Below, one piece after another: positions 41,840-46,768 of a stretch of 51,099 nucleotides of DNA; the stretch's first letter is position 1; each line of letters opens with the position of its first letter. This DNA comes from an uncultured Pseudomonadota bacterium. Its GTDB lineage: Bacteria > Pseudomonadota > Alphaproteobacteria > Rs-D84. The notes under the pieces were generated by a model that was not told the DNA's origin, ran no database searches, and worked only from the letters and a program-made list of their open reading frames with translations. The stretch lies in assembly GCA_902774305.1 (NCBI GenBank), contig CACYHY010000001.1, positions 1 to 51,099 of the forward strand, given 5' to 3'. Made by a program: the position numbers and the translations under genes.

Positions 41840-42026
41840 GCGAAAATATTATAAAGATTTAATTATTTTTACGCAAGCGAAAACTTTGGTTTTGTTTTTT
41901 TAATTTTTTTCGTTTTTGTATTGCTGTTTAATTTTTTTTAATTTTTTGTTTTTATATCACTTTTTTTACTTGCGTATGCTGTGTAAATTTTTCTACAATC
42001 ACTTTGATAAAAGGGAGAGGAAACCT

Positions 42027-42719
42027 TTGCAAGAACGCATAGAACCGCCAATTTTGATATCCAGACTGATGACCTTTGTAATGGCCACTTCATTGGTCGT
42101 GCTGTTTGTATTGGTTTTTACATTGGATAAAATGTTCCCTTTGAACCGTCCACAAGTGTTTGTTTTATCAACACAATCATTAGAGGATAAACAGCTGACT
42201 TTGACTGAATTTCCTACTGATGACGCGTTTTTAGAGCAATATAACAAACAATTTATCTTGAATTATGTACGGGAACGCAATGAAATTACGCCTGATTTGG
42301 CCATTATGCGTGCAAAATGGGCGAACAGCCCAAGTGGCAGCATAAAAGCACGTTCTACGGATGCTGTGTTTGGCGAATTTGCAGATTCTGATATGGTAAA
42401 TGCGGTGTATCAAGTTTCAGATGAGCCTTTTAACATCACTTGCACTGTTGATTTTCCATTGAATTATCCGGTTGTTCTGCAAACAGGTACTACTGATACA
42501 TATACCGTTAGTTTTTCGTATCGTTGCAGTTATGGTCCAATGGGGGAACAGCAATATGAACGTCTGGTTAAATTGCGTATCAAGTTAGAATCAACCGCAA
42601 AAAGTGCTATGCGGTGGGTTGAACGCATGGAAAACCCACTTGGTGTACGTGTAAGCAGTTATGAAACCACAGATGGAACACAGGATCCTCTGAATTGGGG
42701 TCAACATATCGAAGAATAA
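42027..42719 (+). CDS. virB8: VirB8-like type IV secretion protein
   Basis: The protein has a short cytoplasmic N-terminus, one membrane helix (LMTFVMATSLVVLFVLVFTL) and a periplasmic NTF2-like domain, the VirB8 plan. FLEQYNKQFILNYVRERNEI corresponds to the conserved YVxxREgY-type helix, and the C-terminal strands (VSFSYRCSYG, YERLVKLRIKLE) fit the sheet. I place the start at TTG 42027 because GGGAGAGG lies six bases upstream; an ATG at 41976 lacks a ribosome site. VirB8 forms part of the inner-membrane complex of type IV systems and contacts VirB9 and VirB10, which follow directly. Similarity is structural rather than strong in sequence. Confidence 0.8.
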   Translation: MQERIEPPILISRLMTFVMATSLVVLFVLVFTLDKMFPLNRPQVFVLSTQSLEDKQLTLTEFPTDDAFLEQYNKQFILNYVRERNEITPDLAIMRAKWANSPSGSIKARSTDAVFGEFADSDMVNAVYQVSDEPFNITCTVDFPLNYPVVLQTGTTDTYTVSFSYRCSYGPMGEQQYERLVKLRIKLESTAKSAMRWVERMENPLGVRVSSYETTDGTQDPLNWGQHIEE

Positions 42720-42742: not shown

Positions 42743-44257
42743 ATGTTAAAAATTTTGAAATTAAGCGGATTGGTATGTGTGCTGATGTTATCGTCAGCAA
42801 CTGTTGCTTTTGGTGCCCAGGCTGCTTGGGAAAATCCGTCTGCAAATATGGCGGCAGGCAGTATTAAACCTGGATACGCACAACTTTCTTGGTCCCAAGG
42901 AACTGTATTACCACTAAAATTGCGTGGCGGTATGGTTACAATGGTTACATTACCAAATGGTGAACAAATTTCTGATGCTGTTATCGGTGATACAGGTTTG
43001 TTCGACATCAATGTAACCCAAGGTGATAGGGTTTTGTACATCACACCAAAGGATAATTCAGCAGAATCTGATACAAACTTGATTGTATTGGGTCAATCTG
43101 GAAATAAATACATATTCTATTTGACCAGTTCTGGTGGCACAGAATCTTCAGAAATATCATATTCACAAGTTGATATCGTTTTAGACAATGGCGCATCTGT
43201 GGGAACAGGCAATGCATCTGCGAGCAAATCTGTTGGCGGTATGGGTTCTATATTCAAAAAATCAAGTCCCACAACCAGCACAGTTGGCGTTGATGGCGAA
43301 GATTATGCATGGATTAAATCTATGAAAATTGACCCTTCGGAATTCAGATTTGATTTGGATATCTTTGTTCCAAATCCTGATGATTATGTTATCGCCCCAG
43401 AACGTGTATGGCGTGATAAAATCTTTACATACATTGACTTTGGCGACAAGGTTATTTCTATGACACAACGTCCAGTTGTTTCATTGATGATTGAAGGCGG
43501 TGAATCCCCTGTTGGTTTCCGCACAGATGGTCAAGATGGTCGTTTGTTGATTGTAGAGGCTGTTGGTGATATGGTTCTGCGTAGTGGTCAAAGAATTGTC
43601 TGTATAAAAAAACGTGCAAAACCTTTCTTGATTGCAGATACAGCATCTGTTATGGCTCTGGCCGAGGCAAATGTTGCACAGAGTATGATGTCTGGACAAT
43701 CTTTGAATAACATTGCATATTCCAATGATATGTCTGCTATAAATGGTGCCGCAATGGATTACAGTGCAACACCAATGTATATGTCTGATACAGCGAACCC
43801 AATGGGAACAGGTGTATATATGCCAGCTGGTTATGGCGTCCCAAGTTCTCAGATGTACGGTTCATCCAGTGGCGGAATTTCTATGATTCCAACAAAACGT
43901 GAAACTGCGGGTTCTTACCTGCCCCAGACGAATATCCCGCTGATTACATCTAATCAAGCTGGTGTTGCTGTAGAACTGGCATCTGATACATCTGTAAAAG
44001 CGTTGGACGATTATTGGGCAGAATTGTTAACTAAATTTACAGGTGATGGTGGTAACGGTTTATTAACACCTTATCAAAATAGTGTATTCTATGCAGTTGA
44101 TTCCCAAGGTGTTGGCGATTTAGGTTCTGGTTCATCTACTGCAAAATTATATCGTCTGCGCATTGGACCAATTGCTGATGTTGATACGGCACAAACTTTG
44201 TGTGATAAGTTAATGAAGTTCCAAGTTTCTGGCTGTCGCGTTGTCAGAATCCAGTAA
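42743..44257 (+). CDS. virB9: VirB9-like outer-membrane-complex protein with C-terminal SPOR-like domain
   Basis: A signal peptide (ending about AFGAQA) leads to an N-terminal beta domain. The VirB9/CagX core lies around residues 185-300: APERVWRDKIFTYIDFGDKV, then GRLLIVEAVGDMVLRSGQRI with VCIK, matching the family's conserved C-terminal lobe. VirB9 is part of the periplasmic and outer-membrane ring that binds VirB7 and VirB10. Residues 300-420 are a Met/Ser/Gly-rich linker. The last 80 residues end in LYRLRIGPIADVDTAQTLCD, which closely fits the second half of a SPOR domain, known to bind denuded peptidoglycan. VirB9 proteins do not usually carry SPOR. The gene starts 23 bases after virB8. 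Confidence 0.82.
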   Translation: MLKILKLSGLVCVLMLSSATVAFGAQAAWENPSANMAAGSIKPGYAQLSWSQGTVLPLKLRGGMVTMVTLPNGEQISDAVIGDTGLFDINVTQGDRVLYITPKDNSAESDTNLIVLGQSGNKYIFYLTSSGGTESSEISYSQVDIVLDNGASVGTGNASASKSVGGMGSIFKKSSPTTSTVGVDGEDYAWIKSMKIDPSEFRFDLDIFVPNPDDYVIAPERVWRDKIFTYIDFGDKVISMTQRPVVSLMIEGGESPVGFRTDGQDGRLLIVEAVGDMVLRSGQRIVCIKKRAKPFLIADTASVMALAEANVAQSMMSGQSLNNIAYSNDMSAINGAAMDYSATPMYMSDTANPMGTGVYMPAGYGVPSSQMYGSSSGGISMIPTKRETAGSYLPQTNIPLITSNQAGVAVELASDTSVKALDDYWAELLTKFTGDGGNGLLTPYQNSVFYAVDSQGVGDLGSGSSTAKLYRLRIGPIADVDTAQTLCDKLMKFQVSGCRVVRIQ

Positions 44258-44290: not shown

Positions 44291-46768
44291 ATGGTAAGTA
44301 AGGTAAAAGATAAATTAAAAGAAACATTGGATGCAACGCCCAAGGCGATTCGCTGGATGCTGTTGGCTGCGGCATTCATTGTGGTTTTAATTTTGTTGTT
44401 CTTGTTGATAAACAAACCAAAGACTGTTGATAATCCTGGCATTCATGCAGATAAAGAAATTAAACTGACTATTACACCGGCCAGTGCTGATTTTTCAAAC
44501 ACCCAAGTTGGTGGGAAAAAAGATCAAACCTTCAAAATATCTGCGACAGATGACGCAATCATTGACGATGTTGTTATCAAGGATTCTGTTACAGGTTTTA
44601 ATATAAAACAGAACAATTGTCGTAATTGGAATGTTAACAAAGATATAGCATGTAAAGTTAATGTTACTTTTGCACCTGCTAATGCCGATATATCTGGCGA
44701 TGTTGTGTTAGAGGTCAACTGGCATGATAATGGGGATTCACGTGATGTAAATCCAAAAACAGAAACAATTACTATTCCTGTTAGCGCTGTTGGTGCAGCA
44801 GTAAAACCAAAGCCAGAACCAGAACCTGAACCTGAACCAGAACCAGAACCCGAACCAGAACCGGAACCAGAGCCAGAGGATGACATTGATTCAGATTCTG
44901 ATTTTGACTTGGATTCCGAACCAGAACCAATTATCGGTGGCAATGAAAATATTTTCAACCAACCTGAACAAGAAAAAAAACCTGTTGAAACACCTAAACG
45001 CAAAGCACCAGAAAAGTGTTCTGATTTTGCGATGCCAGGATATAGTCCATCAGGTGTCCATATTGGTTGGATAAAACCGAAAAATGGTCGTTATGAATTT
45101 CATCCATTTTCTGATACGGATTGCAATAAGCCAACAGGAATTTACAATCCTGATACAGGTATAATCACCAGCATTGATGGCAAGGGTACAAAAATTGGTA
45201 CAGATGCCGATCATCGTGGTGCCACAGTTAATTTGAATTCGTTGCCAAAATTAAAATCAAAACCGGGTAATGTGGCGACACGTTCTTCATCTTCATATCA
45301 ACCAAGTGGAATGGGAAACTTGCGTGGCACATGGACTGAAACAGGTGGTGGAATACATTTAATAAAGAACAATGTTAACGAAGAAGCCTTAAAAGGAACC
45401 GCATCGGAATCAGAATCAGTGTATTCCAGTATGCCGTATGACAGAACCTTTATATTACGTCAATTCAAACCAATTCCAGCAACAATTGTGTCCGAGGTTC
45501 GTGCTGATCCGTCTGTTTATAACTGCGACAGTAGCGGTAATTGCAAAGGTAGTGGTATTCCTGTACGTGCAACCGTGGACAGAAATGTTTATTCCGACAA
45601 TGGTCGCACAGTTATTATCCCAACCGGAACATTATTGATGGGGTATTTGACAGGTGAACTGCCAGGGCCATATAAATCTATAGGACGTATGAAAATAAAT
45701 TGGTACCAATTTATCCGTCCAGATGGTGTAGAATTTAATTTTGGTGGCAAAGGTCAAGACCCTTATTCTGCTGATTCCCAAGGACGCGTCGGCGTTCCAG
45801 GATATGGCAGTACCGACTATGTTGAACAAATGGTTATGCCATTATTGACGGCGATTATCCCAGCTGCGGTAAATATGATTGCACCAATTGCTGATACATT
45901 TGTAAATCAAATTGATTTGGATAATAATACAGTTGTGCAATCTGGTACCGTACGTTCATCAGAATTGGCCAAGAACGAGGTTATTTCAGCTTGGAATAGA
46001 GTTGCACAAAAGTTAATGGTTGATGCATTAGATAACACAGTTCCACCATTTTCAATTGCAGCAGGAACACGTATTACAGTATATTCCCCAGTTGATTTAA
46101 TCGCCACATGTGGTGATAAAGATGGCGAAAATGCTGGCAAGAAATGCGCCATACATGAATTCGGAAGCAAACAACGTCGCGAATGGAAAACCGTACAGGA
46201 AGAAAGTGAATTAACCGCGAACTATGACGATGCTTCTTGGACAGGTCAGGTTCGTTCGTTTGCTTTGGATGGATATTGTTCCGAACCAGATGAAAAGACT
46301 GGTATCCGCGGTGTTGATAAAAGCAAAATCGGAGACCTGCAACAAGCTGGATATGATTACAGAACGGTTTTGGCATATTGTCAATCTTTGGCATATCAAG
46401 CAAAGAATCAAGCCAAATATGAAACTTACTATCAGAATAAATTAGACAATGGTATCCAAGGTGTTGATAAAGACGGAAATGCTATCAAGTTAGAGAAAGG
46501 ATCCACAGAATATAACCAACAGATTCTGGGATTACAATATGCCAAGGATGCAGATGGTAATGATACAGACATTATCAAAAATCCATTTGAAAAAACTTCA
46601 TCTGGGGCTGGTTCTGAACCAGTGGGCAGTTTGGACTGTGATGGTCAGGCACCTGATCAATACGGTTGCTGTCCTGGTGAAACATATACAGAATTACCTG
46701 AACAAGGTGGATTCTTCTGTTGCCCAGATGGTGGTGGTGATTGCTTCCCGCCGCTGGACTTAGATTAG
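44291..46768 (+). CDS. virB10: VirB10-like type IV secretion protein with accessory domains
   Basis: The 825-residue protein starts with a cytoplasmic stretch and a membrane helix (residues 21-41). Residues 56-166 look like an Ig-like, ASH/choice-of-anchor-type beta domain (ITPASADFSNTQVGGKKDQT). Residues 173-196 are a Pro-Glu repeat. The VirB10/TrbI core spans about 385-605: MPYDRTFILRQFKPIPATIV, ATVDRNVYSDNGRTVIIPTG, and a hydrophobic antenna-like pair around 513-538, ending AAGTRITVYSPVDL. A 220-residue extension follows, ending in a Cys-rich tail (GCCPGETY, FFCCPDGGGDCFPP). VirB10 spans both membranes and transmits energy to the outer pore. Length is about twice that of Agrobacterium VirB10. 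A terminator follows. Confidence 0.85.
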   Translation: MVSKVKDKLKETLDATPKAIRWMLLAAAFIVVLILLFLLINKPKTVDNPGIHADKEIKLTITPASADFSNTQVGGKKDQTFKISATDDAIIDDVVIKDSVTGFNIKQNNCRNWNVNKDIACKVNVTFAPANADISGDVVLEVNWHDNGDSRDVNPKTETITIPVSAVGAAVKPKPEPEPEPEPEPEPEPEPEPEPEDDIDSDSDFDLDSEPEPIIGGNENIFNQPEQEKKPVETPKRKAPEKCSDFAMPGYSPSGVHIGWIKPKNGRYEFHPFSDTDCNKPTGIYNPDTGIITSIDGKGTKIGTDADHRGATVNLNSLPKLKSKPGNVATRSSSSYQPSGMGNLRGTWTETGGGIHLIKNNVNEEALKGTASESESVYSSMPYDRTFILRQFKPIPATIVSEVRADPSVYNCDSSGNCKGSGIPVRATVDRNVYSDNGRTVIIPTGTLLMGYLTGELPGPYKSIGRMKINWYQFIRPDGVEFNFGGKGQDPYSADSQGRVGVPGYGSTDYVEQMVMPLLTAIIPAAVNMIAPIADTFVNQIDLDNNTVVQSGTVRSSELAKNEVISAWNRVAQKLMVDALDNTVPPFSIAAGTRITVYSPVDLIATCGDKDGENAGKKCAIHEFGSKQRREWKTVQEESELTANYDDASWTGQVRSFALDGYCSEPDEKTGIRGVDKSKIGDLQQAGYDYRTVLAYCQSLAYQAKNQAKYETYYQNKLDNGIQGVDKDGNAIKLEKGSTEYNQQILGLQYAKDADGNDTDIIKNPFEKTSSGAGSEPVGSLDCDGQAPDQYGCCPGETYTELPEQGGFFCCPDGGGDCFPPLDLD
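44813..44878 (+). repeat. Hexanucleotide tandem repeat encoding Pro-Glu
   Basis: About eleven degenerate copies of CCAGAA (with CCTGAA, CCCGAA and CCGGAA variants) encode the Pro-Glu rod of VirB10. Third positions vary between copies, which lowers slippage but keeps the protein repeat. Confidence 0.85.

Follow-up and report, generated by a model that had tools for sequence, protein, structure and literature searches.

This locus raises the question of why a putative ring subunit of a type IV secretion system (T4SS) should end in a domain resembling a peptidoglycan-binding module, and what that domain would do there. The window, that is, the whole stretch of DNA analyzed, comprises 51,099 nucleotides of a 0.94 Mb assembly that is 94% complete. 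The closest named homologues come from Candidatus Enterousia and from uncultured Alphaproteobacteria of animal guts, and the source is a Candidatus Enterousia-like alphaproteobacterium. The features of the locus are as follows.

41916..42719, + strand: virB8, directly upstream of virB9 (Pfam VirB8, E 1.4e-9); start uncertain, TTG at 41916 or ATG at 41976
42743..44257, + strand: gene of the virB9-SPOR fusion (504 aa), from its ATG start through the stop codon
42743..42817, + strand: signal-peptide-like N-terminus, residues 1-25 (approximate), a hydrophobic stretch with the end VAFGA
42881..43612, + strand: VirB9/CagX core, residues 47-290 (Pfam CagX, E 1.3e-20)
43634..43957, + strand: Met/Ser/Gly-rich linker, residues 298-405, approximately 110 residues
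43961..44254, + strand: complete SPOR domain, residues 407-504, approximately 98 residues (Pfam, AlphaFold, Foldseek, VIA-align)
Residues 407-415, 418-432, 448-454, 468-477, 480-492 and 499-503: strands and helices of the SPOR model
43973..43975, + strand: Glu411, aligned by the structural alignment offset with Gln270 of RlpA, the glycan-reading residue
44153..44161, + strand: Arg471 to Arg473, at the place of Arg309 and Arg311 of RlpA (basic patch)
44201..44203, + strand: Cys487, invariant, putative partner of Cys498
44234..44236, + strand: Cys498, invariant, putative partner of Cys487
44291..46768, + strand: virB10, directly downstream of virB9, 825 aa (Pfam TrbI, E 7e-15)

The encoded protein shares with the VirB9/TrbG/CagX family (PF03524) the signal-peptide-like start, the CagX core and the position between virB8 and virB10. 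The CagX score of the core was 74.5 bits and passed the cut-off of 34.2, and the NCBIfam VirB9 equivalog TIGR02781 was matched with 52 bits (E 7e-14), below the equivalog cut-off of 217.7. Judged by these profile scores, the protein is a divergent VirB9 outside the classical TIGR02781 equivalog. Its N-terminus is probably a signal peptide, and the protein would accordingly be exported. Homologues in the genus were 66-83% identical. What distinguishes the protein from known members of the family is the linker of approximately 110 residues and the C-terminal SPOR domain, the latter being lacking in the related VirB9s examined outside its clade. The linker was Met/Ser/Gly-rich, as the preliminary description had it; residues 299-321 were nearly invariant within the genus, the remainder was variable, and the pLDDT of the linker in the AlphaFold model was mostly below 40. 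In the SPOR domain, Cys487 and Cys498 would probably pair as an α2-β4 disulfide.

The T4SS core and ATPases (VirB8, VirB9, VirB10, VirB4, VirB11 and VirD4) were all encoded in the genome, with loci scattered across contigs; VirB4, VirD4, a VirB11-type ATPase, called from a T2SSE match and its sequence, and a VirB3-like open reading frame were present on contigs other than that of the window. No Pfam TrbL match for VirB6/TrbL was found in the 94% complete genome, and this component may be divergent. The best explanation of the VirB9 in the window is that it is an outer-membrane core ring subunit of a chromosomal T4SS. Several further observations were made on secretion genes. A small lipoprotein gene (L144:392-982, - strand) is the divergent neighbor of the VirB11-type ATPase gene, and its product may be an accessory component of this system. 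A PilB/GspE-type ATPase has as its neighbors a membrane protein of the GspF/PilC type and an exported coiled-coil protein (L143:394-3850, - strand), which suggests that the small genome also encodes a type IV pilus or a type II-like system. In the VirB10 of the window, a choice-of-anchor-D/Ig-like domain, whose NCBIfam choice_anch_D match was below its cut-off, and a long (PE)n linker precede the TrbI domain. In two other families, huge virB10 genes adjoin the tailed virB9 (L130:518-9031, - strand, 2838 aa; L129:5267-9106, - strand, 1280 aa), and beta-flower repeats (19 and 9 stretches, respectively; 'VVDANGNVIGRVLPDGT') fill the region before the TrbI domain; a repeat-built VirB10 of such length is striking.

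The preliminary description had proposed a VirB9 fused to a SPOR-like C-terminal domain, and this was borne out by profile matching, structure prediction and structural comparison. The full-length query matched Pfam SPOR (PF05036) at residues 465-498 with E 7e-4 and 20.2 bits, just short of the cut-off of 21 (profile positions 39-73 of 76), while the tail alone scored 24.4 bits (E 3.7e-5), above that cut-off. All 12 divergent VirB9 tails compared with Pfam SPOR matched it (best E 4.2e-9), and the tail of one relative covered nearly the whole profile (10-76 of 76). The tail had been described as the second half of a SPOR domain; SPOR it is, but the domain is complete, as β1 ('GVAVELASD'), α1 ('VKALDDYWAELL') and β2 ('VFYAVD') were also found, and the match of the query to Pfam is weak because the α1-β2-β3 region is lengthened. 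Structure prediction, proposed for residues 420-504, was run on residues 401-504 with 37 sequences of one genus, a shallow alignment, and gave a β-α-β-β-α-β topology with a mean pLDDT of 77. In the full-length model of VirB9, everything after residue 155 other than the SPOR domain was poorly predicted.

Foldseek placed the SPOR domain of RlpA (6i09 and 6i05) at the top for this tail model, with a probability of 1.00 and a TM-score of 0.74 by target length. With VIA-align, all 76 residues of 6i05 were aligned (Z 9.3, rmsd 2.1); rank 1 was 6ozd, an exported protein of Burkholderia, with a tied Z of 9.4, and the SPOR domains of CwlC (Z 6.8) and DedD (Z 5.7) were ranked 4 and 5. The RlpA SPOR domain thus ranked clearly ahead of most of the solved structures. 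The link came from fold comparison only, as a search of the PDB sequences with a profile of the tail (hmmsearch) returned nothing relevant; a PHROGs search also gave no match. A chance match in a low-complexity tail, to which the full-length query's Pfam score just below the curated cut-off might point, is extremely improbable and was refuted by the matches of 12 of 12 divergent tails together with the agreeing fold from AlphaFold, Foldseek and VIA-align, among whose hits RlpA stands out. The fusion and its SPOR fold are, on profile matches and the predicted model, well supported.

A VirB9 match was found in 106 of 148 related genomes. Tails were at least 57% identical across the genus and 22-40% identical to those of other families. 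Tailed VirB9s were spread over 13 family-level groups within Alphaproteobacteria, six from the same order (f1-f6) and seven others from the class (f8, f27, f37, f53, f56, f78 and f95), in assemblies of 0.5-2.3 Mb, and the tail was absent from 11 VirB9s in nine other families. In a tree of the VirB9 core, rooted at its midpoint only and with a long branch between tailed and untailed proteins, the tailed VirB9s formed one side of a single branch with a support of 100/100, a pattern consistent with one fusion event. The retention of the tail over 13 families and in one clade argues for a kept function. In a phylum draw of 398 genomes, tailed VirB9 was not found outside the genus, and on plasmids, matches were to the VirB9 core only, with no tail; spread beyond Alphaproteobacteria is unproven. 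Several genomes of the same genus that are rated 96-99% complete (G022, G044, G057 and G061) had no VirB9 match, and the secretion system may have been lost in some species of the genus.

Since the tail is a SPOR domain, the residues with which SPOR domains contact glycan were compared. In RlpA, the side chains of Q270, R302 and R309 touch denuded glycan, R311 belongs to the basic patch and F274 makes a stacking contact with a sugar; Q251 and R285 of FtsN correspond to Q270 and R309, and Q351 of DamX to Q270 (PMC6895207). Among the side chains that read denuded glycan, this Gln is the only one that is highly conserved; it is the preferred and not an obligatory residue of the SPOR family (PMC6895207). 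In the structural alignment, model residue 7 corresponded to RlpA 266 (offset 141 in protein numbering) and model residue 103 to RlpA 341 (offset 162), with gaps in the middle of the domain only, such that E411 corresponded to Q270, S414 to A273, D415 to F274, R471 to R309 and R473 to R311; the sequence motifs agreed.

At the place of Q270, the 116 VirB9 tails had Glu in 115 cases and Asp in one, with 112 Glu and the Asp counted by script and three more read by eye. Among SPOR domains of the same class that are not on VirB9, chosen by profile and not as a random sample, Gln was present in 45 of 48 and an acidic residue in none; the contrast was complete. The genome of the window itself has a Gln-type SPOR domain in an RlpA-like protein (L138). 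Gln occurred in all 28 such domains of near relatives, and the 20 class-wide domains (13 by the pattern of the script, the remainder by eye) had Gln in 17, His in two and Arg in one. At the place of F274, the usual phenylalanine is lost in VirB9 tails and the residue is not aromatic. The β3 arginines were mostly kept: R473 was retained, and R471 was replaced by His in some families. For Arg302, no conserved basic counterpart was present in the hairpin of the tail. An acid at the place of Q270 should repel the muramic lactyl carboxylate that is bound by Gln and the arginines. As Gln is only preferred in the family, its loss lowers the claim of binding but not that of the fold. Judged from these alignments, the SPOR domain of VirB9 is constrained but re-tuned, and a binding face that is strictly kept yet altered points to a constrained function differing from that of septal SPOR proteins.

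As established for VirB/pKM101-type cores, VirB9 subunits assemble in large numbers into a ring, and general knowledge of VirB9 would place the domain in the periplasm. Because the ring consists of many subunits, each ending in a flexible linker and a complete SPOR domain, it would display many SPOR copies in the periplasm, and multivalent contact with the cell wall may anchor or space the secretion core in peptidoglycan. With the Gln always acidic, the Phe lost and the basic β3 positions mostly kept, the re-tuned face would probably read peptidoglycan differently from FtsN, DamX and RlpA, and its target need not be septal. Such a many-copy peptidoglycan contact of the secretion ring is in our view the likeliest role, held with about even confidence; it would agree with the SPOR fold, the conservation across 13 families and an exported ring protein encoded between virB8 and virB10. 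Against it, the replacement of Gln and Phe might reflect a loss of peptidoglycan binding in favor of protein docking, and the predicted fold comes from the shallow one-genus alignment, with a pLDDT of only 77.

Protein docking ranks next and is held tentatively. Glycan binding would have been lost, and the RNP-like SPOR fold would serve as a docking module in the core, for example, toward VirB10 or a lipoprotein. The key glycan contacts are replaced in every copy and yet the domain is strictly retained; an acid and a Trp in it are invariant, and its carrier is always the VirB9 of a single T4SS clade. However, the proposed binding face has mostly preserved its β3 arginine positions, and the α1 Trp is shared by many of the class's Gln-type SPOR domains and therefore says nothing for docking.

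Canonical septal targeting is less likely again and somewhat disfavored by the residue comparison. The preliminary description had suggested that the tail places the machine at division sites; the tail would bind amidase-denuded septal glycan and bring the machine to division sites or new poles. The SPOR proteins characterized so far all have roles in division or morphogenesis (PMC6895207), the SPOR fold and two mostly kept β3 arginine positions would suit such binding, and as an AmiC-type amidase is encoded in the genome, denuded glycan is probably present. What speaks against this step is the acid, present in all 116 VirB9 tails whereas 45 of 48 other SPOR domains have Gln, together with the non-aromatic residue at the Phe position and the missing conserved basic counterpart of Arg302; the SPOR identity stands, while the extension to denuded septal glycan does not fare well. 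It is also conceivable, although improbable, that the fixed Gln-to-Glu change switched the specificity, perhaps to glycan that is de-N-acetylated, whose free amine an acid would suit, or modified in some other way, and that the domain tethers the machine to a particular zone of the wall. On this reading, a clade of alphaproteobacterial T4SSs would have a wall-reading ring, with such a SPOR domain on every VirB9 subunit.

Compared with known SPOR domains (RlpA 6i05 and 6i09, FtsN, DamX, DedD and CwlC; PF05036), the VirB9 tail has the same β-α-β-β-α-β fold, C-terminal position after a disordered linker and mostly kept Arg309 and Arg311 positions. It differs in Glu or Asp at Gln270, the loss of Phe274, a longer hairpin and a carrier that is a secretion subunit instead of a division protein. 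A profile of VirB9 with its tail picked up dozens of non-VirB9 proteins of the class through the tail alone, and all 20 examined were SPOR domains. The Gln-type alphaproteobacterial domains (L207-L226) resemble the tail in length, the α1 Trp in many of them, an RLRVGP-like β3 and the cysteine pair; they differ in keeping Gln (17/20) and in not being VirB9. Such proteins are, by this likeness, the likely source family of the tail. The Dot/Icm core has peptidoglycan-binding accessory proteins, such as the OmpA-like DotK, and the working principle, a peptidoglycan-binding module that holds a secretion core to the wall, would be the same; in that core, the module is a protein of its own with a different fold, whereas the SPOR domain of the window is part of the VirB9 subunit itself.

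The literature search, which left most subscription journals outside, found no paper in which VirB9 and a SPOR domain are joined in this way, and secretion goes unmentioned in a survey of Enterousia genomes from 2025 (PMC12306168). The ring protein and the fold are known; the widely conserved combination and the fixed residue change are new. A SPOR domain fused to a ring subunit and kept in 13 family-level groups of small-genome Alphaproteobacteria offers a direct handle on how T4SS cores cross and are held in peptidoglycan and on what gives some of them fixed positions in the cell. The fixed acidic residue is a natural experiment on the range of SPOR recognition.
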